Positions 1,488 to 61,466 of a DNA stretch of 64,000 nt are shown in pieces. The notes below the pieces were generated by a model. It had not been told where the DNA came from. It was given only the letters and a program-made list of their open reading frames with translations, and did not search any database. The stretch is from the NCBI GenBank assembly GCA_002118135.1, contig BDIU01000253.1, positions 279,941 through 343,940 on the forward strand, in the 5' to 3' direction. This DNA is from Trebouxia sp. TZW2008. Lineage: Eukaryota > Chlorophyta > Trebouxiophyceae > Trebouxiales > Trebouxiaceae. Numbering within the stretch: the stretch's first letter is position 1; each line of letters starts with the position of its first letter. Position numbers and translations under genes: made by a program.

Positions 1488-4400
1488 CTATTTCCTGACA
1501 GCTTTGGTTGTTTGTGGTTTGCTTGCTCCTTTGAGGTTGCTAGCTTTGAGCTGCTTGGCGTGGGTGAATCCTGGGGTTTCAAACACACGGGCATAGTCTG
1601 GCAGAAGTGCGGCATGAGTGGTGATGCTGACCCCTTCGTGCACCCACACCCTCAAATCTGCTGGGCCTGTAACACCAATGCCCACCCACCCAAGGCCTGA
1701 AATATTCACAGCTAATTCATCAGCTGTACGTGAAGTTCTGCCCCATGCATGGTGCAATCACAAGCAATACATTACAAAGAATTAGGCATGGAAACTTTGC
1801 ATGACACAACTGCCAGCAAGGCTTGATTCTTGGCTTTGTAGAGCACAACTGGTGAATACAGCGTGGACTCTGAGCAAGATAAATTGTCATTGATGTGAGA
1901 GTCACAGTAACTGAGGAGCACATGGCCCCAGGCTGAGCATCCTGCTGCTGATGCTTGACACAAAATGTTAGGGCAAATGTTCCCCAGCAACACACTTTAC
2001 ACATGCACAGATGGCAGGCTTTCACATCACAATAACAAACTGTCGGCTGTAAGCTACATGTAATAGCTCAGGCATGCCATTTTCTGCCATAGTGAGCATT
2101 GTATGACTCACAGCTTCATCAATCAGGCCATTTAGGTGGCTCTGGCGTTGACAACAGCATGCCTTTTGAGATCCTGCTTGCTTGTCAACAGATGACAAAC
2201 CAATTTTTGACATATTCTTGTTGCAATGGTGAACCACTTTCAGGTGTCTGAGCAGAATTACCTGCAATAGCGACATCAACAGAGCTCTCATGCCAGCTGT
2301 CACCCTCTAGTAACACATTGTTTGGCAGCAGGGGCCCAAGCTCATCTACCCTACTGGGACCCCCTAGGGGGGGTACGAGCTGTGTGCCTCCACTAGCGTC
2401 CAGCCTGAACACACAAAGTCATGAATGAGACTTCTAATCTTGGTTAACAGCTTGACGTCACACACCTCCACTCAAGGTCAGGCCAAGTCACACGCAATCC
2501 TTTTTTATGAGCTTGTGTGCATGCCTGACTTGTGCCTGGGAGCCAGGCTGCAATGCAATGCAGCATTTACCGCAAGACTTTGGCAAACGCAGAATACCAG
2601 GATGATACTGATCAAGCATGCAGTGCATGCGTGTCGAACACGCTTGATGCCCATATGCGTATGCTGCCCTGGGTTCACCTATCCTCTGCTTTATCTGTGC
2701 GCCCGTAATGACATGCAACTTCATCTGAGGCCCAAACTGTCAGGTATACAGTCTGGCCAGGAATACGGACTATGTCAAAGCGTGCTAAGCCGCCCATGAA
2801 AACAGTTTGACCAGCCAACATCCTGTATGTGCGAGGCTTCAGTTGTCGGCGTGGCAGAAGCATCCGGACCTGCAATCAGGCCAGATTGTAAGATATCTGC
2901 TTGATCCAGTTTAGCCCATCACTAGCATAGCAACCCCTCAGAGCTTTTCTTAGGAACTTCATTATAAGAATGCACATGCCAGACGCAAGCATGTTAAAAA
3001 CATCCTAACCAGGTCACATCAGCACTAGAGGGGCTCAGATGGACTTGTGCTGCAGGCAGCCTTTGGCAGTGGTATAGGCAGCACTCAATACAGAGGAATG
3101 CACTTGCTTGCCGATTGACAGTAGGGCCTTGTCTGGAAGCTCTGTCTTCTGGCAACAGAAGGTAAGCACGCATATGTGTGGCGCATCAAACAAGTTGCAT
3201 AAACCCTTGTTGTTGTGATCAAGGCAGGGCGCCTACCTCATCAGCATTGAGCTTAGAGGAGAGCTGGTAGTGGTGAGCCACTCCTGGAGTGTCCCACATC
3301 TTGCAGCCAGACTGTAACACACCCTCCACCTTCAGCATGCCTGCAACACCCAGCAACATGCTCATCATCATGTGCATGTCATTGAGTTAAGGCACATTGA
3401 GGGTTGTTTTGTGCCAGGGCTGCGCGATGACATGCTTGTGACGCATTGAACTGGACAAAGCTTTGTCCTCAGTGACCATCAACGCTTCAGCCCGAGTGCA
3501 AAACATGCAACATGCTACAGAATGCCGCTTGATCTTGCAGATTCATGATGCTGCATAAAATTGCAGTGACAACAGCAATGCAGGCTTCCACACGGCTGCA
3601 GCATACCTAAACATGCAATTGTGGACGCTGCAGTCTGAAGTACAACGGGTTGCATGCGTGGCATCTTGCTTACCTAGTGTAGTTCCAGGATGTGCAGCAG
3701 TGGTGATCTGCTGAGTTGCTTTCGCACCAGCTAATTTTTGCATGGCATTGATCAGGGAGCTTTTGCCAGCATTCTGAGCCCCCACAACCCACACGTCTCC
3801 CCTGCTACCCACCATTTCTTGAACACTGCCCAGCAGCTCTTTGATGCCAGTGCCCTTGATGTTGCTGACAAGGTGCACAGCAGCTGGTGGAGGGAGTCCT
3901 GCCTGCTTACACCGCCTTTGAACCCAAGCCTGCAACGAACTTCATGATGTCAGTGCGAGATCAACACCATGGTATCAGCAACATCACTGCTGAGCAATGA
4001 CGCCAGTGGCCTTGTTGTTGCTGACAAGGTGCACAGCAGCTGATCGCGGCAGCCCTGCCTGCTTACACCGCCTTTGAACCCAAGCCTGCAACAAAGTTCA
4101 TAATGTCAGTACGAGATCGACATCACGACATTTGCAACATCACTGCTGAGCAGTGACGCCAGTGCCCTTGATGCTGCTGACAAGGGACACGGCAGCTGGT
4201 GGAGGGAGCCCTGCCTGTTTGCAGCGCCTTTGCACTCAAGCCTGAAGTCATCATTCATCACATCAGCATTGACCATGACATCAACATCCTTGACATGAGC
4301 GTTCCTGACATCAGTACCATGACACCTGCATTTGTGCTCAGCGAACTGCTGATGCCTGTTCCCTTGCTGACAGGATGCACAGCAGCGGGCTGAGGAAGTC

Positions 4401-6109: not shown

Positions 6110-6615
6110 GGCTTCGGAGCGAGTCAGACGCTGCACACGTGACGGCGGGAGGCTCTTGCCCAGCTTCCTAGGGTTGCAGCAAACCCTACAAGCCCGGTCG
6201 AAAAAGCAACATTATGCACGTGGTCTGACGTGTCGTCACATGGCTGTGATGACCTGGATCCCGCCGCCCAGCTGTCTTGATGTCAGTGCGTCTTGCTGAA
6301 ACCGGTCCCGCCACGCTGGACACCGTAGTCGTGACTCAGCTGGTAATTGCAAACCTCTACACACCAGGTGGTGCTTTGCCGCAGACCTGCCAGGATTGCT
6401 CTTGTTCTGTATATAGCTACGATTGATCGCTCGCGACATTTGGGAGAATGTCGATGCCTGCTGTCGCACCCAGCGGCTCTACCAGGTGGGATCGAGCTCA
6501 TGTGGGTGCTTGCTGGTCGGGACTTCACCGTGCATCAGGCTGAGTGAAGGTTTTATTGTGCAGACTGAATCCCATTAGTGAGGATGGTAGTCACGAAGAA
6601 GACGACAAGAACACA
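6110..6615. promoter_or_regulatory. Shared upstream region of divergent NOA1 and PEPCK
   Basis: About 505 bp between the two proposed start codons. A TATA-like tatatag lies at about 6410 and is correctly oriented for PEPCK, some 200 bp before its proposed ATG. No other motif is supported. Its use as a bidirectional promoter is inference from gene layout. Confidence 0.4.
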
Positions 6616-12591: not shown

Positions 12592-13064
12592 CTACTTTGC
12601 TTTGGACTGAGTGCCTGAAGCAGCATTGTTGCCTGAAGATTGAGCTGCAGATCCTCCACCATAGCTTGAACTGTTTGGGTTGTAGTAGTTTGCCCTGGAG
12701 TTGTCGTGCCCATCAGAGCCTCCACGGGAGGAGTAGTAGGCAGAGTTGTTCGGGTTGAGTTGGTTAGCATGGTTGTCTTTGTTGGCCTGCGAAACAAGAT
12801 TGGGCGTCGGCAAAATGCCAAGCTTGAAGATCAGGTCATCCTTCTGTAACAGTGCAAAAGTGTGCCCTAGTGATCAGGGCCTGCGCGCAGTTGCGCGACC
12901 GCTGTCAGGCTGCCATTGTTACTGCAACACTTTGCATGGGTTTTCGCGGCAATGCTGCCGAGCAAGAGCAACAGTATGTGAAGCACTTCACTTCCACAAG
13001 ACCATGCGATCAGTCGGACTGCTGCATGCAAGGGTTGTATACATACCTTTGAGTTCATGGTCAA
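12592..13064 (-). CDS. Small Asn-rich hydrophilic protein (copy A)
   Basis: Two exons, 13047..13064 and 12592..12843, joined in phase, giving 89 residues. Exon 1 is short: MTMNSK, then a GTATGT donor. Exon 2 reads DNHANQLNPNNSAYYSSRG, a Ser/Gly/Asn-rich stretch with a second degenerate unit (NSRANYYNPNSSSYGGG), and ends SKAK-TAG. The same motif occurs in the gene at 15181 on the other strand, so the two are paralogues. No membrane segment or signal is visible, and composition suggests a disordered protein. I do not recognise the family. The start is uncertain because the six-residue first exon rests only on splice consensus and phase. Confidence 0.6.
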
Positions 13065-15180: not shown

Positions 15181-15549
15181 ATGATCACGACTGCCCTCGC
15201 TGCCAGCAACGGCACCCAGATCATGGCTAGGCCCAGCCGTCTTCGCAGTCTGCCGAGGCACAGGGTCGGCACACGCCCTGTCAAAGTCTCGCAAGTGACA
15301 TACGCCAGAGTGAGTAGCAACGCCAGGCCCTATGAACTCGCATGCTGCATGTCATGATCCTCGTCGAGCTTAATTGACAACTAGAGTGGTCAACTTAAGT
15401 CAAGCATGTTGGCAGCTTGGTAACCTGCTGGTCTTGTCTTGCAGACCCCAAACGACAACCGTTCCAACCAGATGAATCCAAACAACCCTGCCTACACTGG
15501 CTCCAGGGGTGATCCGGCGGACATGATGACAACCATGCCAATCAACTGA
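15181..15549 (+). pseudogene. Asn-rich repeat protein (copy B), reading frame shifted
   Basis: Exon 1 is 15181..15309 (ATG, 43 codons, Arg/Ser/Ala-rich and poor in acids, possibly an organelle-targeting peptide), donor GTGAGT. Exon 2 starts at 15445 and reads NDNRSNQMNPNNPAYTGSRG in phase, but stops at 15547. In the next frame the sequence continues as two further good units, DDNHANQLNPNNPNYAGG and DDNRANQLNPNNPNYQGEF, to a TGA at 15660. The intended product is therefore probably three units long, and one small indel between about 15505 and 15520 breaks it. It could be a recent mutation or an assembly error. It is a paralogue of the gene at 12592. Confidence 0.6.
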
Positions 15550-15662
15550 ACCCCAACAACCCCAACTACGCTGGAGGATCTGGACATCAATCTGGTGGCA
15601 ATGATGACAACAGGGCCAACCAGCTGAACCCCAACAACCCAAACTATCAGGGCGAATTTTGA

Positions 15663-37043: not shown

Positions 37044-37333
37044 CTGCAAGCCAAAGGTACAAGGACGCATCGGGAATTTTTTGCAGGCCAGTGGTCTGTG
37101 CGATGACGGAGGAAAAAAGTACCATGGCATCATACCTGATACTTGGCGGCACAGACTGATCTCAGTAATCACGGGTGGCAGCCTTAGGCGGGACGTTGCC
37201 TGCAGATCACATTTCGCCGCCGGCCTGTGGCGCAGGGCCGACGTGTGGTACTTTGCAGTCTTGCATGCCATTTGTCGTACCTTGTGGCTAGCAGGAGTAG
37301 CAGGATCAGCAAGCACTGCTGCTGGTTAAGCGC

Positions 37334-44816: not shown

Positions 44817-45208
44817 CAGGTCCTAACTTGTAATTGGCAGCGACGTCATCTTCGCCCTAATGAAACTTGTGCTGCCATGCTGCACGGAAGGACTGCCAAC
44901 AAGATGTGCCCTCAGAAAGCTCATTGATGTCCTTCACCTGCTTTCATGACATTGTGTCTGTTCTGAGTCTGAGCCTGAAGCTCTGAGGCTTACACAGCCT
45001 ACTAGTAGGTGGCATGAGAACATGCATGTTTGCATCCTGAAGCCCATGTACCGCGCAGCACGTAAAAGTAACGACCAAACAATCAAGCCATGACGTAAAA
45101 CACGCCCAGCCCAACTGGAGAATGACCCTCCTACTAATCACTGGTTGCTGCAACCCTTCATTTGCCTGTTGACAAATTGACAAAAAATGCAGCGAGTCAA
45201 GAGTGACA
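44817..45208. other. Region downstream of eIF2B-delta without supported gene
   Basis: About 390 bp, presumably 3' untranslated and spacer sequence of eIF2B-delta. Confidence 0.4.
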
Positions 45209-47205
45209 CTAGATGGTTGGTTCCTGCCTGTACTCCCTCAGTATGACTGGCACACTGGTAGGTGGGATAGCGCCAAATTCAGTGACGACAAGAGTGATGT
45301 AGTCTTGAGGCATGGCATCGTATGTCAAGTTCAGAAGGCCTGCACAAAACAACAAGAAGCAAGTTAGGCAGAAGTTTGCATGGCAAGAACACCACACCCA
45401 GAAGGCAACTGTCACAAGGCCTGGTAAGGCAACCAGGTATGTCATCAGCATCACATGAGGCAGCTGACTCCTCATGCAAGGCAGCGACGTTGTCAAGGAA
45501 GCTGCATTGTACGCAAAAGGTGCAGCCAACTGTGTGATCCTCAAAGAGGGTCTGCGAAATTCACCTAGTCTTGGCTGCTCTTCCCAATCTTGCAGGGCAG
45601 TGATGTCTGGTCTGCGCGCAACCTTAGTCAGCGCTGACGGGTCTCCAAGCTCATTTGATGTGATGCTGTCAAGCTGAACCTTCTCATGGAACTTGAAAGT
45701 TTCACAGCAGATGATGACTGGCTTGCTGCTGGCAGAAGCCATCATGGCAACAGCTGCTGAACCGGCTCTGGACATGACTGTCCCGTTTGACAGCACTGCA
45801 GCCGCTCCTAGGAAGACCTGTACACAAGTCAGAGTACATCAGTTCAGGCATTGCTAAGCATTGTGGGCCCTTGCTGCTGGCAGAAGCCATCATGGCAACT
45901 GCTGCTGAGCCTGCCCTTGACATGACTGTGCCATTTGACAGCACTGCAGCAGCTCCCAGGAAAGCCTGCACGCATTCAGCCATCAGTTCATTGACTGGCT
46001 GACTGGTCACTCAAAAATTGCAGAATGAGTCTTGGTGTGTCACATGGCTGCAAGAGCAAGCACTAATGCAATATTCACGGTGTGACCTCAAAGAACAGGC
46101 GGTTGCCATGCACTTTGCAGGAAGGGCGTGATTGAGAAATCTACCATAAAAGCGCCCACCAAGCAATAAGGTAACTGGTCACTCGGCCACTTCCTGAGGT
46201 AAGCAGACAGTTCTTGTGGATGTGGATCATAATGACTGTACCTTGGTAACTTCTTACATGATGTAGGAAGCAGAGTTGAGCAGCATATGGCTAGAAGCAA
46301 TGCCATGTGACAGTAGGCCCTGCAGCCTGCCCATGCAACGAGGCAGCTTGACAGGTCTTGTTGATGCAGCTGACAGTGACTGTACCTTGGTAACTTCTTG
46401 CATGATGTAGGAGGCCGAGTTGAGCAGCACATAGCTGCAGGCAATGCCGTGTGACAGCAGGCGGCGCAACAGGGCCCGGCCTTCCAGCTGGGGCCGGGAG
46501 TCCATCACAACCACCCTGAACTTCTTGCCCTCCTGCTTGCAAAATCAACAGCAATTGTTAGCAGCCCAGCTGCAGTGCAATTGCAGCAATAAGCTGCAGG
46601 CAGAAAGGCAGCAAGATGTCAACTGTGCAAGCCCATGCAAAACTTGTTGTGCTTTGCATACAGACGCACTGAAAACATGCTTTCTGCTCTGAATGAAGAG
46701 GATGAAGTCAGCTTGGCTTATTGTGCGCTTGGCAATCCTGTGCAAAGACATGAGCAGGCCCAGACATCTGAGCTGGCATCTTGCATGCTGAAGAAGATGA
46801 CTTTACATCGCTACAAAAGCCAACGCAAACACTGCATCCCATGTGTGATGGCTCAGCAGCAACTTGCATTGAGACTGCACCTCACCTTGCTTGCTCTGAG
46901 GAGGATGTTGAAGATGACTGAAGAAAAGCCATACGTCAGTATGACATCATCATTGTAGACCTTGGCCACAGCATTGGTGACCAGAATGCTGTCTGCAAAG
47001 ACAATCTTTTCTTGGATGTATGTGTTGATCTTCTCCACCAGCTCCTCCTTTGCATCTGACTCATGAGCAGCAGGATCTATTTTGCTGATCTGCATCACAA
47101 GGCAGAGCTGAGCTGAAAGCTGTCGTGTGTGTATGAACATGACTCTGCATGCTGGCCAGCGAGCAAGCAAGCAAGCAAGCAAGCCAGCGAGCAAGCAAGC
47201 GAGCG

Positions 47206-47242
<37 letters not shown>

Positions 47243-50200
47243 TGCTTGTCACAAGCGTTGGTCTGATGTTCTGGTGCAGTGCATTGGTGACGTTGCTTGA
47301 TAGCAGTGCTTGTCACAAGGGTTGGTCTGATGTTATGGTGCAGTGCATTGGTGACGTTGCTTGATAACAGTGTTGTTGTGCAAAGGGGCGCTGCCCATTA
47401 GCTGCATCACTATTGTGTACCAATTGAAAGAGGGCGCTAAGACAGCAAAGCTGCAAGGCATGTCCGCAATGCCTAATGCGCTTTGTAGTGCAGCTGGCTG
47501 TACTGCACAACTTTTACTGCAACAAAGCATTGCTGGAGTGTGCCTGATAGCAAGCATCGTGTCTGCCCTAGTCAGCCGGTATGAGCCTTGATTGCCATTG
47601 CTCTGCTGTACACGTTACACAAACAGCAATTATGCTGACGTGAATGAGATGATGGCGTTTGACATCAGCTGGCAGTTGGGAATTTCCGTGAGTAATGGAG
47701 CAAACATAAGCATAAGCCTCAAAAGGAGATAAAACAGCAAGGTCAAAAACATCTGCAAATGACTAGTTGATTCACAAAGAGGCCACAGACAGTTTTGCGC
47801 ATGTGTGAGGTAGCTGGCAGCAGTTCTTGCCTGTAGCTTGACGTATTTGATGGCATTGCCCATGCTGATGGAGAGGGGCCTGCAGTGGACCAGGAACTGA
47901 ATGGCATTGTTCAGCTGCTGTGTCAAGTCCCTTGACAACACCTTGCCTGCAAGGCAGCACCAAAACAGGTATCTTGATCTGCTCACAATTGATGTGCCTT
48001 AGTCAGGCAGTCTTGGACCAGAATAACTCAGTCAGGCAGTCTTGGACCAGAATGACTCAGTCAGGCAGTCTTGGACCAGAATGACAAGGCTAAGTGACAT
48101 GCCCCCAGCAAGTGCTGTGCACATTACTGTATTTGGTTCAGTCCTGGATGACAGGCACAGATCTATATCCATGATTTCTGTCAACACAGCAGTGCTTTCT
48201 GCTTGAGAACAAGCTTAGCAGACCTTACACAATGCACAGCATATGCCTAGCAAAGCAAAACGGACAACAGCACGCCGTCAGTCACTGGACACAGTCACAA
48301 TGCTGCAAAGATCCTGCTGACAGATACCTGCAGGTGTGGTATAATCCTTCACCATCTGGCGCAGCATGTCCAGCATGGCTATGCATCTTGCATTGACCCT
48401 TTGAACTGATGCTGACAGTAGCATGTCCTCAGTCAACATGCAAGCCGCGCTTGCAGCACTTCTGGCAACAGCAAGCAGTACATGAATAGTCAAGAGCAAG
48501 CTGAAAATCTGACAGCATCATGCTGCCAATCACCTGCAGGTGTGGTGTAGTCTTCCACTATCTGGCGCAGCATGTCCAGCATGGCTATGCATCTTGCATT
48601 GACGCCTTTGAACTGATGCTGACAGTAGCATGTTGTCAGTCAATATGCAAGCAGCACTTGCAGCACTGCTGGCAAAAGCAAGCAGTAAGTGAGTAGTCAA
48701 GTGCAAGCTGAAAATCTGACAACATCATGTTGCCAAATACCTGCAGGTGTTGTGTAGTCTTCCACCATCTGGCGCAGCATATCCAGCATGGCTATACAGC
48801 GCGCGTTTGCACCTTTGATGCTGCCATCCGCATACCTCAAACCCAGCTTCAACACCTCTGGATGGAAGGGGAAGTCAAAGTTGTATTTCTCCAAAACTGA
48901 GTCCAAGGTCACCCTCTACACAGTACACATGCAGCAGCTCATCAGCTGAGCAAAAGTCAAAGTGGTACTTCTTGAAGACTGAATCTACAATAAACATCTG
49001 CACAGCACTTGCACATCAGTTTGAAGGCCTCATCTGATCAGCTTATGCTAGATTGTGATGACACGCATAGTGGACAAGACATGCTGCAGCATAACTTTAC
49101 TTTTCCAACACTGAGTCCAGGGTCACCCTCTGCAAAGCATACGTGATTCAGTTTGAGACTTTGTCTGAACAGCTTGTGCAAGTATCAATGACCTGTATGC
49201 TGCATGCTGCCATGTACTTTCATGGCGCATGATGTTGTGCCCCAGATATAGCAGCCACATCCAGAGCATAGGGCATTGTCCTGTTCTGCTGTATCAGTAA
49301 GAGATTGTCTTGTGTACAAAAGGTCCCTTGCCGGCAACACAAGTGACACCAAGAATTGACTTGTGGCATGTTGTTGCAAGCAAGGGTAGGGCACAAACCC
49401 CAAGAAGCCTGCACACTGCATGTCTTGCACAACGCGTGAAGTCATGCTTTGACTCGCAGAATCAGCAAGGCAGAGCCAGAATTTCTTCTTGACCGTGGCA
49501 AATGTCAGGTGTGAAAAGTCTGTACAGGTCTCTACAAAGGAAGGCCAAGGCTGTGCCAAAAGTTGCAGCCGTTTGGCATGTCCAGTTGTTGCAGCATATG
49601 ACCCATTAGATGTGGCAACAGCCTCAGCATGGGCACAACTACCGGCTTTTCTTCATGCAGCTATACAGGCTTGTGACTGTCAATGCTATCTACTGAAGGG
49701 CAGATGCTGTTAGTCTGCATCAACAATTCATTTGCTTTCCAGGCAAGTTGTCGAAAGGCCATTTGAGGACTTTGCATACTCGTCACGCAGCTAACAATCC
49801 TGCTGAGGCCCTGTTTGAAGTCCGTTTGATTGGCATTGACAGCTTGACTACAGACAGTGACCTGCTAGCCTCTTGCTGTTGTCTTGTATCCAACTAGCAG
49901 CAGGTCATGCCTTTTCTTGCCGTGTACGCTGTGCTGTCAGGTCAGGGTTCGAAATTGTGGCAGCAAGGCTGCTCAATTTTGGTATCCTGGCATGGCAGCA
50001 CATGGCACACGGACAAAAATAGTATGCGCTGCTGCATGCACCGAATATACGTCAACCAACATGTCAGTTCACCTGATTGAGGTCTGCGGGTGATCTCAAA
50101 TGCAGGAACCTCATTCACATGGGTCATCGCCCATTTCAACCGTATGTGCTCAACAGCCGCAGTGCCACGTCTGAAGTGCTCGTTTTGTCACATTGCAGAT

Positions 50201-53200
50201 GCGCACAGACATCAGACAGCAGGCCAGCGGCAAGCCAAGGCAAGCTGGACAGTCTGTGTTGATCATCTGCAAGACAGCTTTCAAATGATCACCTTATACT
50301 GTGGCAGATGGGCAAAGACATCAGACAGCAAGCCTGTGGCTTGACCCAACTAGCTGTGCCTTTCTGCTGATGCTGCTGCTGCACTTTGCTAGCTCAGCCA
50401 CTGTGACCAATCTGACTTTGTTAATTTTGCCCTGACAGCTGTTAAGTGCTCACCTTGTAATGTGGCAGATGGGCAAAGACATCAGACGGCAGTCCGGCGG
50501 CTTGACCATCCGCTGCGCCTCTCTGCTGCTGCTGCTGCACCTTGCTGACTTGACCACTGTGATCAATCTGAGTTCATCAACTTTGCCATGAAGGTTTTCA
50601 GCGCTTACCTTATACTGTGGCAGATGGGCAAAGACATCAGATGGCAACCCAGTGGCTTGACCATCAGCTGCGGCTTTCTGCTGCTGCTGCTGCTGCACCT
50701 TGCTGGCTTGCTTGGCAGGCTTGCCTTTGGTTGCAGCAGCACCTTGAGGCTGTGCTGGTGTCTGAGCCTGAGCAGAAGTTGAAGCAGTTGCCTGCTTGTC
50801 TGTGGTGCTGCTTGCCTGTCCCTGCTTGGCGCCTGCATGGCTCTGCTTTGCTCCACCCTGCTTATCACTCCACAAGAAAGCTTCAGAACGGCAGTCAACA
50901 GGTCATGCTTGTAGCAATGCACGTGCAGACGAACATCCCGACGAATTGCTAGTCAGATCAATGGTGTCAGCTGAGAGCCTTTGCAAATGTACACAGGTTG
51001 TTGCTTTGGCTGTGACAACAACCCAGAAATCAATCAGCAGTTATGCGCATTGTCCTGGTTGAGCAATTGATATAACACAGCTAAGTTAGCTCACTTAGAC
51101 ACACCCTATCTGTTTCCGCCTATCAACATTACGACCTAGCAACCTGGCCCCAAAACTAGACCGTTCAACTGAAGTACCTTCGGCGCTCCAGCTGCTTTGG
51201 CAGCGCGTTCAGCCTCCTGCTTTGCGCGCCTTTCTGCCTTCGTGCTTTTTGGCTTATCCTGGTCTTGCCCATCTTGTAGAGGCCGTGCTGCACTTGACGC
51301 CTGTCCCTTCTTTGCTTGGCTGGCATCACCTTTTGGCTTTTGGGCCTGCAACTTCAGCAGGCTTTGCTTGGCAGCAAAATAGCATCAAACTAGGGAGTTG
51401 GCAAGCATGTATGCTGTGTAGCCAAATGACAGGCCTGCGTTCTGTTACAAAGCGTACATGCTGGAGTTGCTCAAGCTGTCACTATGTGGCACGCACATGA
51501 GGACAGCTTCGTTCAGTGCGTGCATCACAGGCTTGTTGTATGCATGTCATGCTTGTGAGCAGAAAGAAAGGGCACCTCTTGTTTGGCCTCTTTCTGGAGC
51601 CTACTTGGGTCCTGACTGGGCACACCTTTGGCCGCCTGTGGCTCAGCAGCCTTTGAAGCCTGAGGCTTCTGCACACCACCACCGGCAGTCTGCTGTGGCC
51701 TATATCCAACAGCAGTATCTTGTGACCCTGCTCCTTGCTGTGAGGGCTGCTGTTGCTGCTGTTTCGGCTGCTGCTGCTTTGCCTGCTGCTTTGCCTGCTG
51801 CTGTGGCTGCTGTTGTGACTGCTGGCGGTGTGGCTGGTGTGTAGTTGACTGTTGAGGGTCTAACTCCTCATCAGATTGCTGCTCTGCCTCCTTCACCTTG
51901 GCTGCTAGCTCGGCTGCTGAAGCAGACTGATGCACGGGCTGCAAGGGGGGAGGAGGAATCTCAAGATCCTGCTTTGGCCCAGTAGCAGCAGGTGTGCTGA
52001 AGCCAGTCCCTGCAGGAATCCACACCACCCTCAATCACTCGGTTGACATGGGAAGCAGTGTTGGCAGTAAAGATTGCTACCATCTGGTTGACATAAGTGT
52101 CAGGATCTGTCTATAGCGGTCAAGAGGCAATTTCAAGACTTGAGTGCCACTGTGTGCACAGCATAAGCACACCACCACAACAGGACCTGCGTCAGCTGAC
52201 AACAGGATGCAGACATCAGGCAAAACTGGCAATTATACATTGCACAGAGTGCTCAGTCATCTGGTCGCACATGATCACCACAACATGAAGGATTGCAGCT
52301 TGTACACGTACCACTGTCAGAGTTGATGCGGTCAACATCAATACTGCGGCGCAATGGGTCAATACTCCGTCGCCTGACATCTGTCTCAAGGCTTTTGAGC
52401 CTGGAATCTGCACAGTTTGCACAAACCACCCTCACATACCTAACAAGCCATGAATGATTAATTCTGCATCTTGCTTGACAATGCAGTGTTTTGCACCCTG
52501 CTGGTGTGCATGTCGAGGACAAGACAGTGACACTGTTGCAAAAGAAATTGGCGGTAGACACTAGGGCGCTTCCATAGCTCAAAATGGCATGTGTACATGC
52601 TACACTTCAAGCTCGACATCTGTCCATGGATGCTGATACTTTGCCAGGCTACAAACCGAAACTGCCACATGACGCACTGAAGCCTTCTGAAGCCTTGCAG
52701 CGTTTGAAGCAGTGAATGCTGGAAACTAGGAAAAGCGCGTAGTTTTCATTCACTCATTCATTCATTCAATGTGAACGTGGGCTAGGCAGGCTCGGTTTTG
52801 GCGCAGTGAAGGCAGTACCTGTACTGAATGAGGCATTCACGCCTAACGTTGCAGCAGCTGCTGCAACAGTGGATGGCACTTGTGAAGGGTGATGAGAGAA
52901 GCTTGCTTGGCGGTGGGCAGCCCCTGGGGTGCCAAGGGGGCTTGAGGGCATGGACCTTGTGTTGGGTAGTGCATGCTGCTCTGACACACCTTCACCTACA
53001 TCTGTTGTAAAAAAGTACACTCAGTCAGTATGCCAAAGTGATTGGCACATGTGAGGGGTGACGAGAAGCTTGCTCGGCAATGGGTCTCCCTTGCGGTGCC
53101 ATGGGGGCTTGAGGGCATGGACCTTGTGTTGGGTGGTGCATGCTGCTCTGACATGCCTTCACCTGCATCTGTCACCACAGGCCAGTTTCAGTCAGGAAGC

Positions 53201-55051
53201 TGCAGCAGCCAAAGCAGCAGTTGACGGCTCATGTGAAGGGCACAAAGAGAAGCTTGCTTAGCGGTGGGCAGCCTGTGGGGTGCCGTGGGGGCTTGAGGGC
53301 ATGGACCTTGTGTTGAGGAGCATGCTGCTCTGACACGCCTTCACCTGCATCTGCTACCATCAGCCAGGTTCAGTTACAGAGAAGATGACACCACAAAGCA
53401 TGAGGGCTTGAAGGGATGGACCCTGTATTGGTGGGAGCATTCTGCTCTGGTACGCCTTCACCTGCATCTACTTGCCCAAATCACGCTCAGTCACAGTGGC
53501 GACTTTGCCAAAACACAGGAGGACCATTGATGTGACAAGACCACTGAATGCACAGGCTCCCACTTTGTGTCTTGTCATCATGCAAATAGCTGTTTATAGT
53601 CAAATTCTAGCGACCACTCAAGTAGCACTAAGAAGACTGTTGTGAGGAAATGTGTGAAATACAATATGTTGATGCTGATGCTGCACGCAGCATATCATAT
53701 CACTTGTAGCACACGGAATGAATGTATCAAGATGTTGATACAACTGCACTGAGACAAAAGAATGACATTGCTCACCGAAGTGTTCCGGTCCAATCTGAGC
53801 CGCAAATGCTGATTGAGTTGCAAAGGGTGAAGTAGGACGCTGGTGTAGAGTAGGGGTCTCCTGCTGACGGGGCGACGCTGGTACGCTCTGCCTTCCTCCT
53901 GCTGTTGAGAGTTGCAACGGGCCAGCAGAGTCCGTGACAGCGCTCTCAATCTCTGAGCGCACCCCTGTGAGCTGTGCCACAGGCGGCAAGCTGACTGCTG
54001 AGCTGAGCATCAATGTCTGGGCAGGGCTGGTTGCATCCCTGTATCACATTTGAGGTCAGAAAATGAAACTCAACAGGATTGTCCCCGATGCTAGGCGTCA
54101 TAACAAGCTAGCAGGGTCAGTCTGAGCGCTGTCAATCTCTGAGCGCACTCCTGTGAGCTGTGCAACAGGAGGTAAGCTGACTGCTCAGCTGAGCAGCAAC
54201 GGCTCAGCAGGGCTGGTTGCATCCCTGTGTCAAAGCAATGGTCATGATCATGTTCATGGCTTGCTGCATCTGTATATCAGAGGTATGATGATTGTCGAAG
54301 TCAAGATGCAAGGCATTCAGGGCTGCAACGACAGTGGACGTGGATTACAGGTGATGCAGCCTTTTTGAAACATCCTGGATGCTGTCACACGGCAATTAGG
54401 AGCTGTTGTGACATCTTGGCCAGTTGGTGGACAGCAGCAGAACTTTACCTGGGGTTGTTTGTATGAGCTCTGGGCGCTGCGGTCACCAAGATTGATGGAT
54501 CCTGCACATCACACAGATCATGTTCCAGTATGCCTGCCTTTGCATGCAAATTGTGAGGGCCAGCCAAGGTGCAGCCAAAAAGGTCAATGCCAATGGCAAT
54601 TGTTGATGTACCTGTAGATGACTGCTGTCTGTTAGACTGCCAGGCACAAGCACGGGCGCCGTTCTTTGTCGTGCAATAGGAGGGTGCTGCACAGCAGGTG
54701 CATCACCACTCCTTCTAGCTGCTGCTTGCCCAACTGGAGAGTCAGTCTGCAAGCATGCAAAATCGTGAGGGATTCAAATTCATGGCCTGTAGACTCTGCT
54801 GCAGGAACATAACCCCGCTTGACCTGAAAGGATGGTGGGATGATTACGGGGTTTGGTGAGCCTGATGTGACATTGCCATCTGCTCGCTGCGAGTCTGCTA
54901 GCAGAGTGGATGGTGGCGACGGTGATGGAGCTGCTCCCTCGACGCGGAACCCGACGACCTTGATCGCAGGCTGAGTTTGGCTTACTGATGACTCGCTTCG
55001 TCTAGGAGCCGGTCGGCTCTCGATCGATTGTGTCTTGTCCCTATTAGGCAT
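45209..55051 (-). CDS. EIF2B4: Translation initiation factor eIF2B, subunit delta
   Basis: Fifteen exons, in gene order: 54824..55051, 54612..54746, 54449..54501, 53776..54038, 52819..53001, 52312..52407, 51576..52009, 51178..51345, 50609..50857, 48741..48915, 47831..47946, 46886..47089, 46386..46532, 45565..45817, 45209..45339. All phases agree, giving 944 residues. eIF2B is the GDP-GTP exchange factor for eIF2; delta is a regulatory subunit. The C-terminal IF-2B domain is clear: NARCIAMLDMLRQ, DYTTPAG, RPLSISMGNAIKYVK, VILTYGFSSVIFNILLRA, VVMDSRPQLEGR, LSNGTVMSRAGSAAVAMMA, VIICCETFKFHEKVQLDS, FGAIPPTSVPVILREY. The N-terminal 550 residues are low-complexity: Ser/Pro-rich, then a poly-Gln domain and a Lys/Ala/Glu-rich coil (KAERRAKQEAERAAKAAG). 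This N-terminus is longer than usual for the family. The intron after 47831 has a GC donor. About thirteen exon-edge echoes lie in its introns. Confidence 0.95.
45862..45975 (-). repeat. In-frame echo of eIF2B-delta exon 14 acceptor edge
   Basis: About 105 bases nearly identical to the first part of the 45817 exon, upstream of it. It preserves the acceptor and reads FLGAAAVLSNGTVMSRAGSA and on to ASASSK without a stop, then diverges before the CCETF motif. Confidence 0.92.
46228..46330 (-). repeat. Echo of eIF2B-delta exon 13 donor edge
   Basis: gactgtaccttggtaacttc occurs here and at the true donor (46378-46397). The following 80 bases also match well. The donor site of the copy is unchanged. 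Confidence 0.92.
47159..47242 (+). repeat. (AAGC/GAGC)n microsatellite
   Basis: About twenty units of a four-base repeat inside an eIF2B-delta intron. Confidence 0.95.
47241..47370 (+). repeat. Two-copy 64-bp tandem repeat
   Basis: Unit beginning cagtgcttgtcacaag and ending gtgacgttgcttgata, repeated once with very few changes. Not related to an exon edge as far as I can see. Confidence 0.9.
48000..48086 (+). repeat. Three-copy 29-bp tandem repeat
   Basis: Unit tcagtcaggcagtcttggac plus cagaatgac, three nearly perfect copies, in an eIF2B-delta intron. Confidence 0.9.
48320..48650 (-). repeat. Two echoes of eIF2B-delta exon 10 donor edge
   Basis: Copies of the last 75 bases of the 48741 exon plus donor at about 48327-48425 and 48531-48650, spaced about 200 bp with shared flanking intron sequence. 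Both contain atctggcgcagcatgtccag. In the older-looking copy the frame is interrupted. Confidence 0.9.
48945..49140 (-). repeat. Two echoes of eIF2B-delta exon 10 acceptor edge
   Basis: Copies of the start of the same exon (aactgagtccaaggtcaccc at the real site) at about 48950-48990 and 49095-49140 (cactgagtccagggtcaccc). This exon, like SDA1 exon 7, has echoes on both sides. Confidence 0.85.
50190..50575 (-). repeat. Three echoes of eIF2B-delta exon 9 donor edge
   Basis: tgtggcagatgggcaaagac with the following gln-codon tract of exon 9 (real 50609-50720) recurs at about 50300 and 50460, each with a gt at the donor position, and a shorter copy lies at about 50197-50235. Confidence 0.92.
53030..53480 (-). 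repeat. Three echoes of eIF2B-delta exon 5 acceptor edge
   Basis: Copies of most of the 53001 exon at about 53030-53190, 53215-53365 and 53395-53480. All contain gggcttgagggcatggacc or a close variant. The nearest copy reads SEQHAPPNTRSMPSSP, against SEQHALPNTRSMPSSP in the real exon. Similarity declines with distance. Confidence 0.92.
54100..54235 (-). repeat. Echo of eIF2B-delta exon 4 acceptor edge
   Basis: gctgtcaatctctgagcgca and gggctggttgcatccctgt, about 100 bases apart in both, match the start of the 54038 exon and its acceptor. Confidence 0.9.
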
Positions 55052-55556
55052 GCGTGCTAAAAAGCACTGGGAATGCCCTTTGCAGCAAGCAAGTCTGCCC
55101 TGCCGGTGACAACTCTGCAACAGGTCTCCCTGTGTGAGGCCAATGCAGCTGTTATGGAGAAATATGTCACGTCGTGTCAGCGGCGAGCGTGATCACAGCG
55201 GACCTTTTGCACGCGAAAGTTGCCGAGGTTGTCGCTACACTGCATGCATGCGCACTCGCACAAGGAAGTCAGTCTTGCATACAGAAGTCAGTCGGTCAAC
55301 ATGCTTGACCTAACAACAGTCAACCCTCCCAACTCCTTGACACTCGATTCGCGCAACGACAGGTACAGAGCTGGTGTATCGATACGGCACATACTCGATA
55401 GCGGACTTCAGCGCTGTTTGCCCGCTATTGCTGCAGCTCTCAGATGCAGCTTGCGGTGCTGTGTCTAGCAGGCTGTAGTACGATAGATTTGACTGATCAG
55501 TGCCGAATACTGAGAAGTCCGGGTTGCTCTTAGAGCTTGAGCTGCTGAATATACAC
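55052..55556. promoter_or_regulatory. Shared upstream region of divergent eIF2B-delta and ARID gene
   Basis: About 505 bp between two start codons. No discrete element was recognised. The role is inferred from layout. Confidence 0.35.
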
Positions 55557-58500
55557 ATGGCAGACGAAGCTAACACTGTATGGCACTGCATACGAGTCAA
55601 CCTCGGCAAAGATTCTGACAGCGAGTCGCTCGAATCGACGCATAGTACTTATGGAGCTTCAGCTGAGCTTGAGACAGCGCGAAGCGGGGCTTGCGAAGTA
55701 TGGCAGTGCACAGTATCGCAAGTGTGTGCCGATTGACAGCGACCGAGAGCAAACCTCAAGCTTCTGCTGCAGGTCTTCGACCTCAGGCAACCCAGTGCAG
55801 GAGACCTAGCTGTCAAGCTTGGGTCTCAGCAAGCCACACTTGTATATATTCATGCTACGGAGCTGTCACTGGCGTCTGATGGAGTGCCACAGCTGCAAGG
55901 TGAAGCTAGAAAGTTTCACTTGACAGCATCTGGCTTTTCAGCTAGTTGCTGGTTTTCAGCAAACCAATTACAAGCTGCCTCTTTGGTTTGCAGATCAGGT
56001 CATGATGCAAACCTTTGCTGCTTTCATCAAAGGCCAGCAGGGTGTTTGTAACGCACCCAAGGTTCTGTATGTAGATGCCATTCTGCCCGAGGCTACAGGT
56101 ACAACTAGTTTCCTCTGCTTGGTGCAAATTATGCACAATGTTATGTCCATAATGCCTTGATCTGTGCATTAGACATGATGCTGACAGGTCTTGAGTTTGA
56201 CTGACTCATTATGTCTCTGGCTGCCATGAGCATTTTGCAAACCTGCAATATTCTTGCTCTTGTTGTTCACGCTTTGGATCCTAGTTGGCACGTGTGCTCC
56301 TGCAGTGATTGAGCTGGCAGAGGCAGGTCTTCCGCATATTGTGTACTGGCCTGAAGCACAGCCAGGCTCACAGCTCATAGCTGCGCATTTTGGTCACGCT
56401 TTCTGTGCAGCTCTCCGCAATCCCAATGCAACAGTTGCTGAGGTACTACACGCTGGCTGGCTGGCCTTGACATGCTTGTATTTCAGCTGCTTGCAGACAA
56501 CTGCACAGTGTTTGCATTGCTCCATTCATTGTGGAAAAGGTCTTTGAGACAAATCACTGACAAGCAAACTGTATGTCCCCAATCTCAGAATTGCTGTGCA
56601 TTGCTGCCAGCCTTACTGTCTACAGCTTGGTGCCAGTTGTCCTCTGCTGACGCTCCATCATGATTGCGTCCCAATGTCCTAAGCCTCTATGTGTTGATAC
56701 CTGCAGGCATTTGCAATGGCTAGACATGCATGTCACATACACTTGGGCACCAAGCCTGGTGATGATCAGTCCAAAGTGCTCCTGCCTGTGCTGCACTCAT
56801 CTCAGGCTCCAGCACTGCCCTCTAGCAACTCCGTGCCCCTACCAAATGTAGAGGTAAGCACATCTGTCACCGTCAAATGTAGAGGTACGCACATCTGTCA
56901 CCGTCACCAACACCATCACCAATACTTTTGCCACTGCCATCGCCACCGCCATGCTTGCTTGTCAGGTTTTGCAACCCTGCTAGGTGCATACAGAGGCAAT
57001 GAATTGCTTCCAGACAAATCTGTCCAAAGCATAGTGTACTCATGTCTATCAATTCTCAACTTACTCCAGAATCTGGGAAATTGTTGGACTTCTGTGTGTC
57101 GCTTTCAAGCTGCGTTTTCTGAACTGCAGGGGTTGGACTTGTCTCAGGGGGTAGCAAATGCAGTCCCAAACTGGGAGGATGTGCGGTTGCTGGCCCCGCA
57201 TGCTGAGCTGCGCCTCTTGGCCTGCGGGCAGGCCTCCCTCATTCAGCCTCATAGGCTCAGGTTTACACACTTCAGATCTTCTTCACTGGCTAGCGCACTG
57301 CTGTTTGCATGCACTCTTGCTCACCACATTTTCAGCCACAGTTTTCTGATTGATCGCAGTTTCAGAGGTGCCGCCAAGCTGTTCATTTGACGTATGACGT
57401 ATAGTTATGAACATGCCTTGGAATTTGCAAATTCTATGCATGGCAGGGCGCAGCATGACAGTGGTCAGTCCGTGCAACCTTTGTTGGGCAGTGTCATGTG
57501 CAGTTTGTTGTGCAAAAGGGACTGCACAAGTATTGCATGCATTGTTAACATTGTGCACAGCTTTGGTGCTGTCCATGTTTTTCCTTACTTAGATGGTTGA
57601 GATGTTTGAGCTAAGGTGCATATTGCACAAAGCTGCTGGGATCTTCATCATCCAGGTCAAGCCAGAATAAGTCTAATTCAACGCACCCCACCAAATACTT
57701 AGCCTATAAGCCTGTCATGTCTCTGCAGTTATGTGGGAGAAGCTTTGCGAGCCATGTTGGTGCTGGAAGTCAGGCAGCTGCGTATCACATCTCAAGCACC
57801 CACACAGCGGGTGCCTGCGCATTTGCCCAATGGCTGTACAGCCCTACGGTGCGAGATACAGACTGCCAGTGGCGCTGCAGCTCAGGTTGTATTAGGTGGA
57901 CCTCAGGAAGGTAATGCATGCCAGCACTGACAATGCAATTCAAAAGCACCAATATGCAAGCCCTGCCTTGCATTTCTCCCTTGCAGTGCCCTCTTTAGCC
58001 TGTCCGTTGCCCTGCATATAGCTTGCTGTCTGGGCAGCTGCCTGTGAGTCTGTTGGTGTCTGCCCGTCTCTGCATCCGCCTGTCTGTGTGTCTCTCTGTC
58101 TGTCTGTCAACTTTGCTGCCTAGATGTGCTTGGCTGAATCTGTCGCCCAGTCGGTTCCCAACCCCTACCTGCATGAAAAGATGCCTGACAGCACCTGCAC
58201 TGGTCAGACTGTGCAGTTTTACGTAATTCTGCACCAAAGTATCACTGTTACTTGCAGTGCTGCAAAGACCAGAGCTGGTAGAGCACGCGCTGCGGCAGAC
58301 CCTAGCCGCTGATGCCCTCAGCCTACAGTTCAAGCTACCGCCCCCAGGGGTTCCCTTGCCGCCCGCCCAGGGTTTCCAGGACGTGGCTGCTCGGGCCTTA
58401 GTGGTAGATGCCCTTGCAGTCACCTCAGTATGGGTGGTGCAGGTCATGCGCACCTTGTGCTTGGTAAGTTTTTGGACACTGAACATCACTGTGCATTGCG

Positions 58501-61466
58501 CCTGTGGCATGACCTACTCTGCACAACATAGGGGTTGTCACTGCCGCTCGCCCAGGGGTTCCAAGATGTGGCTACCGGGGCTCTTGTTGTGGATGCCCTT
58601 GCAATCATCTCAGTGGGGGTGATGCAGGTCCTGCGCACCTTGGGCTTGGTCAGGTCAAGTTTTGGTTCATATAATTGCACAACCAGAGCTCCCTAGGTGA
58701 TTGAAGTCAGGTCAAAGCATCATTCGCTACTGTATCATGGCCACTGCTGCTCCTTATAGAACAATGTCGTCAAAGTACCCTTGACAACCTGACCATATGC
58801 TAAGCCCAATATGTATGGGGTGCCTTTGCCAAAGGGTAATAGCTTCTGCATGCTGGGCGTAGCTGCAGTGGCCTGCGTTTTGTGTGAGCTATCTAACCAC
58901 TTGTTAAATCCAATATACATGCTGTCACAGGACAGCAGCTTCCGCATACTATGTGCGCTGGGCATTGCTGCCCTGGGCTCCATTTTGTGAAAGCGATCTG
59001 GACACATGTCAAGCCTGATATGCATGGTGTTGTACGATAGCAGCTTCCGCATGCTGTGCGCATCGTCCATTGTTGCAGTGGTCTGCAATTAAATGCAAGC
59101 CATCTAGCCACATGTTGAACCTGCTATGCATGGTGTTGTAGGATAAGAGCTTTCGCATGCTGTGCGCGCTGGGGATTGCTGCAGTTGGCTGCAACTCCAG
59201 CACAGCCTTCACACAGTCAGATGCTGACCGCTTCACAGCTCTCAGCCACCTCACACCAGCCACCCCAGAACTAGTTGAGCCTCTGCCAGTCACCAGACCA
59301 GCCCTTGGCCCTCTTGGACCAATCTCTTACAATACTCTGCCTTCACAGCATCCCTCCTCAGGTGTGTCTTGCTGATGCCAAGCAACGCTCAAGATACTTC
59401 CCACGTACAACAAAGCAATTACGTTCCTCTGAGTATCTCACGGCTTCCAAACCTTGGTCTTCTTGCTCAAAATGCTTTTAACACGCTGCCTTTGCAGTAC
59501 CCCTCCTCGTGTGCTCCAAATGGCATGTGACGCCTCTCAGCCGTTCTGATGCTTGACATTTTGCCAGGTACATTCCAGCCCCCTCTCACAATGCGCTTGG
59601 GGTTTTGTCTCTGGTGCCCCAGTATTCAGAACGATAGTAAGCCTCTACTGACCTGCAGGATCTTTGCTAATGGAGACACAACGTAGTGGCAGCCTTGCTG
59701 ATGTCACCCATACCATTTCTGCTGGATCTAAAGGGCGCCCAGCCAAGCAGCCAAAACTAGCAGGTACTGCATCAGGATCTCTCCATCTTGCAGGACAAAT
59801 GCAAGCAATGCCATCGCAATCTGCTGTTGATGCAAAGCCAGAGCAAATATCTTCATAGACTTGCCACTGTTGACCAAAACAGCTATGAAAATGAACACTG
59901 ACTTGGCACATGCATTGCATCGCACTGTGCCTGCAGCTGCAATTGCAAATACCTTCCGCAGTGCACCATCTTCAGGAGGAGGCAGGCAAACATTGCAAGC
60001 TATTGCGCACGAGCTTGAATGCACCTTACTGTCCCAGAGCAGTAGCAGCTCATCCTGATTTCTGTGGATGTTGTCGATGCAAGATCTGCTGTGGTGACAG
60101 CACTGCCTTGATGCAAGTCAGAGCTCACTATTGCCCTGTTCTTCTTTGCCCCAGCAGAGCATCTAGCATAGCATCTGCTATGATGTCTGTACTACAGTGT
60201 CATTGTCTCGCTGTCCTCTGCAGCGCCTGAAGTGACACCCATGGAGTGGACATCCAACCGTCCCGAGCTTTCAGTCTGCACCCCCAGGCAGCTTCTAGAG
60301 GACATCAGGAAGTTCTTGGAGGCTCGCAGAGGCAAGCAGCTGCAATCCAGCAGCTTCCCAGAAGCCATCCTGAACGGGCAGCAGCTGGACTTGAATGCCA
60401 TGTACCGAGCTGTGTGCTCCAGAGGTGGCTATGCCATGGGAACTGGTGTCAACTGGGCAGGCCAGGTATGTAATGACAATCATAGTCACAACAAACTGCA
60501 TCGCACTGGTGTCAGCTGGGCAGGCCAGCACCTTCCCAGAAGCCACCCTGAATGGTGCTCAGCTGGGTTTCAGTGCTATGTGTAGAGCTGTCTGCTCCCA
60601 GGGTGGCTACACCATGAAGACTGGCGTCAATTGGGCAGGCCAGCTACAATCTCAACATGAATGACAGCAAGTTACAACTTTTTGTGTAGGTGCTGGGTTA
60701 ATGTAGCTAGGTGTGTCCCTCTGCATTGATGAGAGTAATCAAATTTGAAGCCACCAACCAACAACCTCCTAATCCCGTAAGCCTTCACTGTATATAACTT
60801 TCCTGCAAAATTTGGCATGTGTGCTCCTTGGTTGCACTGGTGTTTGATGAGCTTGACATCCATTTTCAAGCTCACTTAGTATAAAAATCAACTGCATAGC
60901 TGTGAATGAGGCTCTGTCTACAGAGGATCTCGTTGAGTTGGAAAGCTGAGCAATGGGCGGGGATGCATCATGCAAGCACACCTCCACTACAGCTATCCTA
61001 ATCAATGCTTTTTTGTTCTTAGACGTGCTTTCTTGGAAGGGGGACCTTATGGTGCAGCTTCCTGTATTCAAGTTGTCCGCCGTTTGCTGTAACAACAGCT
61101 GCTGTCATGCAGGTCTTTCCACGCATGGCAAATTTCACCAACACGCATAAAATGACTGGCGTTGGCAATGCCCTCAAGCGCCACTATCAGGCGCTTTGTC
61201 TTGACTACGAGCTGGCACATCCACAAGACCTTGCAAAGCAGGTAACTGATGACTTGGCCGCCAAGAGCATTCCAGCTCTCCATAATACAACGTCATCTTC
61301 GCATGAAAGAAAGAATGTGGCCAAACTTTTGAGGAGACGGTGGAGTGCGCTCGCAGCAAGTGGCCCTGTCTGGCAGAAATGTCTGCATCTGACATACGTT
61401 GCAATCAGGTGGCCTGTGCAATTTCAAGTGTGTGTATGCTGGTACCCTCATGGCATTTATCAATAA
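55557..61466 (+). CDS. ARID (BRIGHT) DNA-binding domain protein with possible caspase-like N-terminal fold
   Basis: Fourteen exons: 55557..55721, 55773..55899, 55994..56098, 56306..56442, 56707..56853, 57130..57260, 57729..57910, 58258..58463, 59142..59361, 59568..59636, 59659..59763, 59859..60041, 60224..60465, 61113..61466. All phases agree, giving 790 residues. The ARID domain is clear over the last two exons: SVCTPRQLLEDIRKFLEARR, FPEAILNG, VCSRGGYAMGTGVNWAGQ, VFPRMANFTNTHKMTGVGNA, LKRHYQALCLDYELAHPQDL. It should bind AT-rich DNA, as in chromatin-remodelling subunits. KGRPAKQPK before it resembles an AT-hook. Residues about 60-180 (VYIHATEL, GLPHIVYWPE, AHFGHAFCAALRNP, EAFAMARHACHIH) resemble the end of a caspase/CHAT-type fold; this is tentative. 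The last exon may instead end with a donor at 61241. Confidence 0.85.
56850..56905 (+). repeat. Short echo of ARID gene exon 5 donor
   Basis: aaatgtagaggtaagcacat (real donor at 56853) is followed 33 bases later by aaatgtagaggtacgcacat. The next bases, ctgtcaccgtc, are also duplicated. Confidence 0.9.
58525..58670 (+). repeat. Echo of ARID gene exon 8 donor edge
   Basis: About 120 bases (ccgctcgcccaggggttcca, then gtggatgcccttgca, then caggtcctgcgcacctt) copy the second half of exon 8 and its donor (real 58345-58470), downstream of the exon. Confidence 0.92.
58795..59110 (+). repeat. Three echoes of ARID gene exon 9 acceptor edge
   Basis: Copies at about 58805-58880, 58915-58990 and 59020-59100, each with a form of agcttccgcatgctgtgcgc and gttgcagtgg. 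The real exon starts at 59142. The copies are spaced about 105-115 bp. Confidence 0.92.
59470..59522 (+). repeat. Echo of ARID gene exon 9 donor edge
   Basis: acgctgcctttgcagtaccc ctcctc-gtgtg copies actctgccttcacagcatcc ctcctcaggtgtg at the real exon end (59334-59367). Confidence 0.8.
60480..60655 (+). repeat. Echoes of ARID domain exon donor edge
   Basis: A short copy at about 60500-60530 (actggtgtcagctgggcagg) and a longer one at 60528-60645 that reads FPEATLNGAQLGFSAMCRAV then CSQGGYTMKTGVNWAGQ. They copy the last 110 bases of the 60465 exon and lie downstream of it. Confidence 0.93.

Follow-up and report, generated by a model that had tools for sequence, protein, structure and literature searches.

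Exon-edge copies in the window

The window analysed here is a 64,000-nucleotide stretch of the green alga Trebouxia sp. TZW2008 (assembly GCA_002118135.1, contig BDIU01000253.1, positions 279,941 to 343,940 of the forward strand), and our subject is a set of partial, direct-orientation copies of exon edges that lie in the introns adjoining those exons. By position, the 29 copies that we found, belonging to 18 called edges, fall in five genes: a NOA1/YqeH-like gene, SDA1, CysRS, eIF2B-delta and an ARID gene. They appear to be remnants of tandem duplications, about 100-220 bp long (median ~150), that straddled one splice site. The observation, first made from the sequence in a first-pass annotation, is real, extends beyond the window and mostly represents an ordinary mechanism at an unusual scale. 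The numbers in that annotation were too high, as it had counted about fifty copies in six of the seven large genes, and PEPCK offers only a marginal 41-bp pair.

The CysRS gene model (28265-34335, plus strand) joins into 520 aa with no stop, and both its reading frame and the protein P0121 (593 aa) skip every copy. The model and P0121 are identical at 517/517 residues, the sole difference within the aligned span being a 10-aa stretch, and all ten listed CysRS copies, on five edges, are skipped in P0121 with the joins falling exactly at the outer site. The contig encoding P0121 was presumably already spliced, since the longest contig of its source has 3,595 bases and the CysRS gene model spans 6,071 bases. 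The 10-aa stretch appears to be encoded by a 30-nt microexon within 28440-28711 that our gene finder overlooked, and it is present in the four closest proteins aligned; the model may also be incomplete at its 3' end.

Within CysRS, exon 30340-30549 has an acceptor-edge copy at 30155-30254 (80.2% over 101 bp) and three donor-edge copies at 30593-30629 (81.1% over 37 bp), 30712-30784 (75.3% over 73 bp) and 30860-30927 (76.5% over 68 bp). The copy belonging to exon 31292-31418 takes in the acceptor edge and some intron (31087-31205, paired with 31262-31384 at 73.2%) and lies outside the half-exon list described below. Exon 32027-32175 is again flanked on both sides, by an acceptor-edge copy at 31896-31947 (82.7% over 52 bp) and by donor-edge copies at 32258-32320 (79.7% over 64 bp), 32417-32488 (81.9% over 72 bp, also in a unit alignment) and 32609-32669 (80.3% over 61 bp). 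Low-complexity stretches with TGCC repeats occupy 32321-32397 and 32490-32599 of this intron. Downstream of exon 33625-33896 lie a donor-edge copy at 33980-34082 (78.8% over 104 bp) and a second copy from the donor half at 34093-34146 (79.6% over 54 bp), the edge itself being outside the latter match.

Three of the genes are on the minus strand. In the NOA1/YqeH-like gene, a tandem array of ~156-bp units at 3842-4435 covers the acceptor edge of exon 3674-3929 (Tandem Repeats Finder (TRF), 156 bp x 2.6; self-BLAST, 3842-4244 vs 3998-4434; copy at 3998-4025). SDA1, whose joined exons form one frame with a terminal stop only, has acceptor-edge copies of exon 21416-21583 at 21683-21751 (84.3% over 70 bp) and of exon 22200-22367 at 22473-22501 (96.6% over 29 bp). 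Exon 23213-23416 of the same gene has two donor-edge copies, of which the inner one at 23080-23149 (77.1% over 70 bp) is less similar to the exon than the farther one at 22918-23016 (88% over 100 bp, with a frame-shifting gap).

The third minus-strand gene, eIF2B-delta, joins into 944 aa free of stops and shares 676 of 898 aligned residues with protein P0241, the small length differences falling mostly in the low-complexity N-terminal part. Its single copies are of the acceptor edge of exon 45565-45817 (45870-45962, 90.3% over 93 bp), the donor edge of exon 46386-46532 (46242-46313, 87.5% over 72 bp), the acceptor edge of exon 48741-48915 (49098-49129, 87.5% over 32 bp) and the acceptor edge of exon 53776-54038 (54107-54224, 85.6% over 118 bp), the last with an in-frame stop inside the copy. 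A full tandem array at 48311-48818 with a unit of ~206 bp takes in intron as well as the donor edge of exon 48741-48915 (TRF, 207 bp x 2.3; 87.7% over 302 bp), with copies at 48534-48611 and 48328-48404. Upstream of exon 52819-53001 are three acceptor-edge copies at 53088-53168 (91.4% over 81 bp, also in a unit alignment), 53262-53350 (89.0% over 91 bp) and 53404-53467 (79.7% over 64 bp). One of the 18 called edges was mistaken: the called exon 50454-50534 proves to be another donor-edge copy of exon 50609-50857, as it is skipped both in the reading frame and in the relative's protein, and the copies at 50293-50330 and 50195-50222, first assigned to that called exon, belong to the same series (50195-50534; TRF, 155 bp x 2.7 over 50289-50710). 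An intron of this gene also holds, at 47158-47376, a 64-bp duplication (94%) preceded by (AGCA)21.

In the ARID gene (plus strand), a donor-edge copy of exon 58258-58442 lies at 58542-58627 (80.2% over 86 bp), and exon 60224-60465 is followed at 60505-60643 by donor-edge copies at 60505-60528 (95.8% over 24 bp) and 60525-60643 (78.2% over 119 bp).

Excess and placement of local direct copies

Our main sample was 354 kb on seven contigs of the window's own genome, that of a lichen-type, Trebouxia-like green alga (68.5 Mb in 527 contigs, GC ~0.50), while earlier counts were made on 264 kb. In the 264 kb, matches of at least 36 bits within 1.2 kb comprised 223 direct and 18 inverted pairs, whereas a single dinucleotide shuffle gave 0 direct and 3 inverted pairs; local direct repeats are thus far commoner than chance allows. 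The 354 kb yielded 275 direct and 23 inverted pairs, and self-BLAST of the window (E<=1e-6) yielded 34 direct and 1 inverted. Direct-pair density ranges from 2.0 to 10.0 per 10 kb among the seven contigs, with the window's contig at the upper end of the range (9.7). A 40-kb stretch on contig C150 (L026-L029) has just 2.0 direct pairs per 10 kb vs that 9.7. Detected members of direct pairs cover 13.1% of intron bases, and copy-bearing introns are longer than others (median 508 for 87 introns vs 310 for 472), with the proviso that longer introns also offer more room in which to detect a copy.

Across the 354 kb, the adjoining intron contains one or more direct copies for 92 of 781 exon edges, about one in eight. 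The placement rule originally proposed, by which acceptor copies lie upstream and donor copies downstream, was obeyed by every pair containing one edge (103/103): among 120 exon-intron pairs, 54 contain a donor edge, with the copy downstream in 54/54, and 49 contain an acceptor edge, with the copy upstream in 49/49. The remaining pairs are 3 with a whole exon and 14 without any edge. The accompanying statement that none is a full exon is thus nearly true, failing for 3/120 pairs in the wider sample, and these three are also the only ones in which the copy has both splice sites, as whole-exon tandem duplication would leave it.

We also compared each exon half with each neighbouring intron at a threshold of at least 32 bits, a search more sensitive than tile BLAST (at least 36 bits). 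For 303 exons this half-exon test returned 62+63 matches on the side given by the rule and 8+8 on the other side, with controls of 1+0 for randomly swapped introns and 0+0 for reverse-complemented introns; for the 354 kb, the figures were 70+68 (138) and 9+9 (18). By inspection of the list, about 11 of the 18 wrong-side matches look like whole-exon copies or edge copies that extend beyond the middle of the exon, and neither reading explains the other 7 or so. The exon part of edge pairs spans 24-135 bases (5th-95th percentile, median 70), close to the 30-120 bases first estimated. Symmetric local pasting, or templated insertion, was considered and rejected, as the opposite side was free for 64 of the 138 copies, yet just 18 matches lie there.

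Divergence and unit structure

Divergence between exon and copy at codon positions 1, 2 and 3 is.12,.104 and.21 for acceptor copies and.125,.104 and.228 for donor copies, and the frame is broken by 37 of the 41 gaps. Between two copies of one exon, the exon parts diverge by a mean of 0.199 (n=38), about twice the second-position value of 0.104; this figure comes from a lenient gapped alignment, whose intron figures were discarded since unrelated introns looked as close as related ones. The divergence pattern is that of unconstrained copies beside a constrained exon.

Successive copied splice sites are spaced 100-220 bp apart (5-95%, median 154, n=125), and on inspection of several arrays the inner boundary is often common to the copies of one edge. 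In whole-unit alignments of eight arrays, the intron parts are colinear and related in several, mostly being more diverged than the exon parts, and are hard to relate in the others. Intron parts scored above the decoy 95th percentile in 52/114 exon-copy comparisons, where 5% was expected, and in 24/49 copy-copy comparisons. The copies are direct, local and head-to-tail, with a unit that holds one splice site and a copy on the intron side, as expected of tandem duplication. The idea of repeated partial tandem duplication is supported by the direct orientation, the regular spacing, the common inner boundaries and, in part of the arrays, the colinear and more diverged intron parts.

Gene models and other features of the window

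Gene models were produced with a small purpose-written hidden Markov model gene finder, self-trained from a starting set of Pfam-supported stretches, a small number of long frames and invented splice-consensus strings; the trained signals were CAG/GTRAG-like donors and TGCAG/G acceptors. Exon curation dropped 68 of 440 automatic exons that were short, weak or the weaker of a duplicated pair, the last rule itself converting some exon-exon pairs to edge pairs. Among named sources, the window's PEPCK protein is closest to Coccomyxa and Myrmecia (80-82%), its CysRS protein to Trebouxia sp. C0004 and C0009 (79%) and its eIF2B-delta protein to Trebouxia sp. C0009 (83%).

Elsewhere in the window, long open frames at 35016-37129 and 62285-63419 resemble leucine-rich-repeat (LRR) proteins, and a Pfam scan of two stretches supported an LRR assignment for 35016-36236 and gave none for 62285-62857. 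Inverted, similar coding stretches at 12592-12786 (minus) and 15445-15508 (plus), with the peptides NQLNPNN and NQMNPNN, are perhaps a small divergent gene pair.

Origin of the copies

Frequent short tandem duplication filtered by selection probably accounts for most of the pattern. Short tandem duplications (mostly 100-220 bp, median ~150) would arise often along the genome, and one that spans a splice site would leave a unit of exon part plus intron part present twice. Should the outermost donor or acceptor still be used, the mRNA would be unchanged and the inner exon part would become dead intron sequence; should it not be used, the protein would be damaged and the allele lost. Because use of the outer site is required, acceptor-edge copies would end up upstream and donor-edge copies downstream. 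Constraint would persist on the used exon but not on the copy, which would decay neutrally, and edge copies would therefore be recognisable for longer than purely intronic duplicates. The scheme builds on what was observed directly, namely the local direct copies, the placement rule, the spacing, the dead-copy divergence and the skipping of copies in the protein of one gene.

We infer the selection step, the near-neutrality and the mutational cause. Candidate causes of such duplications include fork slippage, flap mis-processing and end-joining repair, and links of the unit to nucleosome or Okazaki-fragment length are conceivable.

Duplications inside exons would be expected to persist mainly when in frame. 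Spacings are multiples of three in 13 of the 14 pairs lying wholly inside one exon (six exons), in 40/141 edge pairs and in 30/99 intronic pairs; among all exon-exon pairs the figure is 20/35. Three of the 14 in-exon pairs come from an in-frame tandem repeat of 123 bp, a multiple of three, at 38486-39105 in the window (minus strand), which forms a protein repeat in a long exon. As the in-frame bias is found inside exons only, it fits indiscriminate duplication filtered by selection, and the separate mode of intron growth proposed in the first-pass annotation is not needed for most copies. Random placement of such units would put ~52% within introns, 30% across one edge, 11% within an exon and 6% over a whole exon (fractions computed from lags that include two-unit steps), and even untargeted duplication should therefore yield many edge copies. 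A uniform duplication input should be apparent among the youngest pairs, where no edge excess is seen (identity at least 90%: 8 edge pairs vs 6.6+-2.5 expected), with the class consisting of just 21 pairs, including several 22-bp pieces of one array (C1).

Several results weigh against this account. We simulated neutral evolution with randomly placed duplications under several indel regimes and unit lengths, followed by the same BLAST; the first runs used lags that included two-unit steps and were redone with first-copy spacings. The simulations gave 0.47-0.65 edge copies per intronic duplicate, whereas we observed 92 edges in the half-exon test (at least 32 bits) vs 26 purely intronic loci in tile BLAST (at least 36 bits), a comparison of searches of unequal sensitivity; the intronic loci number 45 if those touching an exon copy are included, and a single method gave 141 edge pairs vs 87 intronic. 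The edge excess over the neutral simulation is thus roughly 2.5-7.5 times. Alignments of at least 80% identity ended within 20 bp of the splice site in a fraction of 0.18-0.54 in the simulations vs 45/61 in the data. To near the data, the simulation requires intron-derived sequence to change at 3-4 times the rate of exon-derived dead copies (a factor of 4 gave 0.75 near-site ends and a ratio of 1.7, a factor of 3 gave 0.51 and 2.0). The intron part has no detectable homology (score of 24 or less) in 57/125 copies, and yet these 57 diverge by.124 and.105 at codon positions 1 and 2, much like the 41 clear ones (.108 and.108). A simple outward chain predicts that identity falls with distance from the exon, but no correlation was found (rho -0.06, p 0.57, n=92) and the nearest copy is the best at just 14/33 multi-copy edges, which also disposes of the earlier claim that copies decay with distance. 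A KS test separates the spacing at edges from that at purely intronic loci (p 7e-5, n=92 and 29). Neither is there an edge excess in the oldest class (below 75% identity: 22 vs 20.4 expected). Lastly, the gene models are computed, and the 10-aa CysRS stretch was overlooked.

Beside these results stand some related figures. Codon position 3 divergence is.24 in the 57 copies with undetectable intron part vs.187 in the 41 clear ones. Spacing falls within 100-220 bp at 78/92 edges vs 9/29 purely intronic loci, and part of this tightness at edges is to be expected, longer units being more likely to cross an edge. Set against rotated annotation, there are 120 edge pairs (76.3+-8.4 expected), 29 exon-exon pairs (50.9+-7.8) and 74 intronic pairs (95.8+-9.7); these class counts depend on curation, edge pairs being 109 (null 78) before it and 120 (null 76) after. 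In the intermediate identity classes, edge pairs number 22 (10.9 expected) at 85-90%, 42 (20.8) at 80-85% and 26 (18.2) at 75-80%. Low-complexity slippage in introns, such as in the TGCC runs of the CysRS array, may contribute. Pure neutral tandem duplication was rejected as a complete account: it reproduces the geometry but underpredicts both the edge excess and the ends near splice sites. Two residues go beyond the neutral model, namely the edge excess and the far greater similarity of exon-derived parts than of many intron-derived parts.

These residues are what would favour exon edges being special in themselves, either through seeded duplication or through gene conversion anchored in the exon, templated by DNA or cDNA, while the intron parts drift. 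Such an explanation agrees with two features that the neutral simulation does not reach, the excess over intronic loci and, in many pairs, the loss of homology ~10 bp beyond the splice site. It also agrees with the tight 150-bp unit at edges and with similarity not falling with distance. Nevertheless, we consider it rather unlikely, given the lack of edge excess in the youngest pairs (n just 21) and the fate of its two conversion routes. A mosaic signal of mismatches, as gene conversion would leave, was sought in exon-copy pairs and none was found beyond that of intronic pairs (mean z 0.53, n=80, vs 0.72, n=63), and cDNA templating was rejected as homology fades over the first ~10 intron bases and does not stop at the junction. 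A fuller version, in which exon ends seed tandem duplication of nucleosome length (~150 bp), exon parts are homogenised to the living exon, intron parts drift and introns grow outward by a distinct ongoing process, seems to us slightly more doubtful still.

The other explanations are far less probable. That the copies are decoy or regulatory splice elements maintained by selection draws on the AG kept in 48/52 acceptor copies of the 354 kb, vs 0.80 expected and so commoner than under neutral decay (p 0.03, uncorrected); in a smaller sample with another edge filter it was kept in 52/54, and the effect weakened with the change of filter and more sequence. GT, by contrast, is kept in only 33/50 donor copies vs 0.80 expected, rarer than under neutral decay (p 0.02, uncorrected). 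AG and GT retention therefore deviate from the neutral expectation in opposite directions, and with the frame-breaking gaps, the dead-copy divergence and the omission of the copies from P0121, maintenance appears very unlikely; of the decoy splice sites first suggested, the kept sites remain as sequence, but the P0121 protein uses none of the ten. An assembly artefact, with alleles or haplotypes joined side by side, might be suspected in an assembly as fragmented as this one, and we give it hardly more than a passing chance: similarities run from ~70 to 100% with broken frames, the arrays are regular with up to three listed copies per edge, 13 of 14 in-exon repeats keep the frame, and the pattern is on all seven sampled contigs, making allele misassembly an unlikely source. 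Introners or another mobile element can be practically dismissed. Nothing specific speaks for them except that one window stretch, 31880-32700, matches genome-wide, and the 59 further matches listed for it fall on TGCC-repeat stretches (query 442-518 and 611-720); a search of their own genome with the array stretches 60300-60700 and 48311-48915, in which simple repeats and very common words are skipped, gave a single match for each and thus no sign of one element at many unrelated loci.

Implications and comparison with known systems

The origin of intron sequence is usually untraceable, and here a readable record survives at about one-eighth of exon edges. The divergence of a copy by codon position serves as a rough clock for each event, which could allow direct measurement of intron growth, of the decay of decoy sites and of how well splicing tolerates duplicated sites. 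Should the edge excess prove mutational and not a product of how copies are detected, a hitherto unrecognised connection between exon structure and duplication would be indicated.

Among the routes by which introns are gained, tandem genomic duplication has been reviewed (PMC3443670). In the potato RdRp gene, a tandem duplication across an intron-exon boundary produced an extra intron together with additional exon sequence (Ma, Lan and Niu 2016, PMC4974935). Judging from the portion of that report available, the potato case resembles ours in that, within one gene, the 3' side of one intron was duplicated in direct tandem together with the 5' side of the next exon; the alga differs in keeping the outer site and gaining intron length only, and in doing so at 92/781 edges. 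Duplication of exonic AGGT segments has also led to intron gain (Rogers 1989; Hellsten 2011, as told in the relevant parts of PMC3443670 and PMC4974935). That process likewise involves short tandem duplication within a gene and duplicated splice signals, but, as far as these excerpts describe it, it starts inside an exon and places the new intron between two AGGT, whereas in the alga an existing splice site is straddled and spacing differs from intron length. A unit equal to the length of a new intron was not what we found, with spacing of ~150 vs a median of 508 for copy-bearing introns; for instance, the ARID intron 60466-61112 is 647 bp long (the copy not being counted as an exon) vs a lag of 176.

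Internal gene duplication is common and is said to include whole introns (Gao and Lynch 2009, as cited in parts of PMC3443670 and PMC4974935). The alga shares the feature of common duplication inside genes and, compared via these citing papers, differs in the density at exon edges, the narrow unit of ~150 bp and the dead relics. Introners, as covered by the accessible text of PMC9860276, also add intron sequence genome-wide, but an introner copies itself into many genes, whereas each unit tested in the alga is unique and derives from its own exon. The contrast that the first-pass annotation had drawn with whole-exon duplication and introners was right on both counts. Our literature search, with subscription papers mostly outside it, found neither genome-wide exon-edge relics nor this pattern in Trebouxia. 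Tandem duplication across an exon-intron boundary is thus already published, and what is new in the alga is its density and the regularity of its unit.

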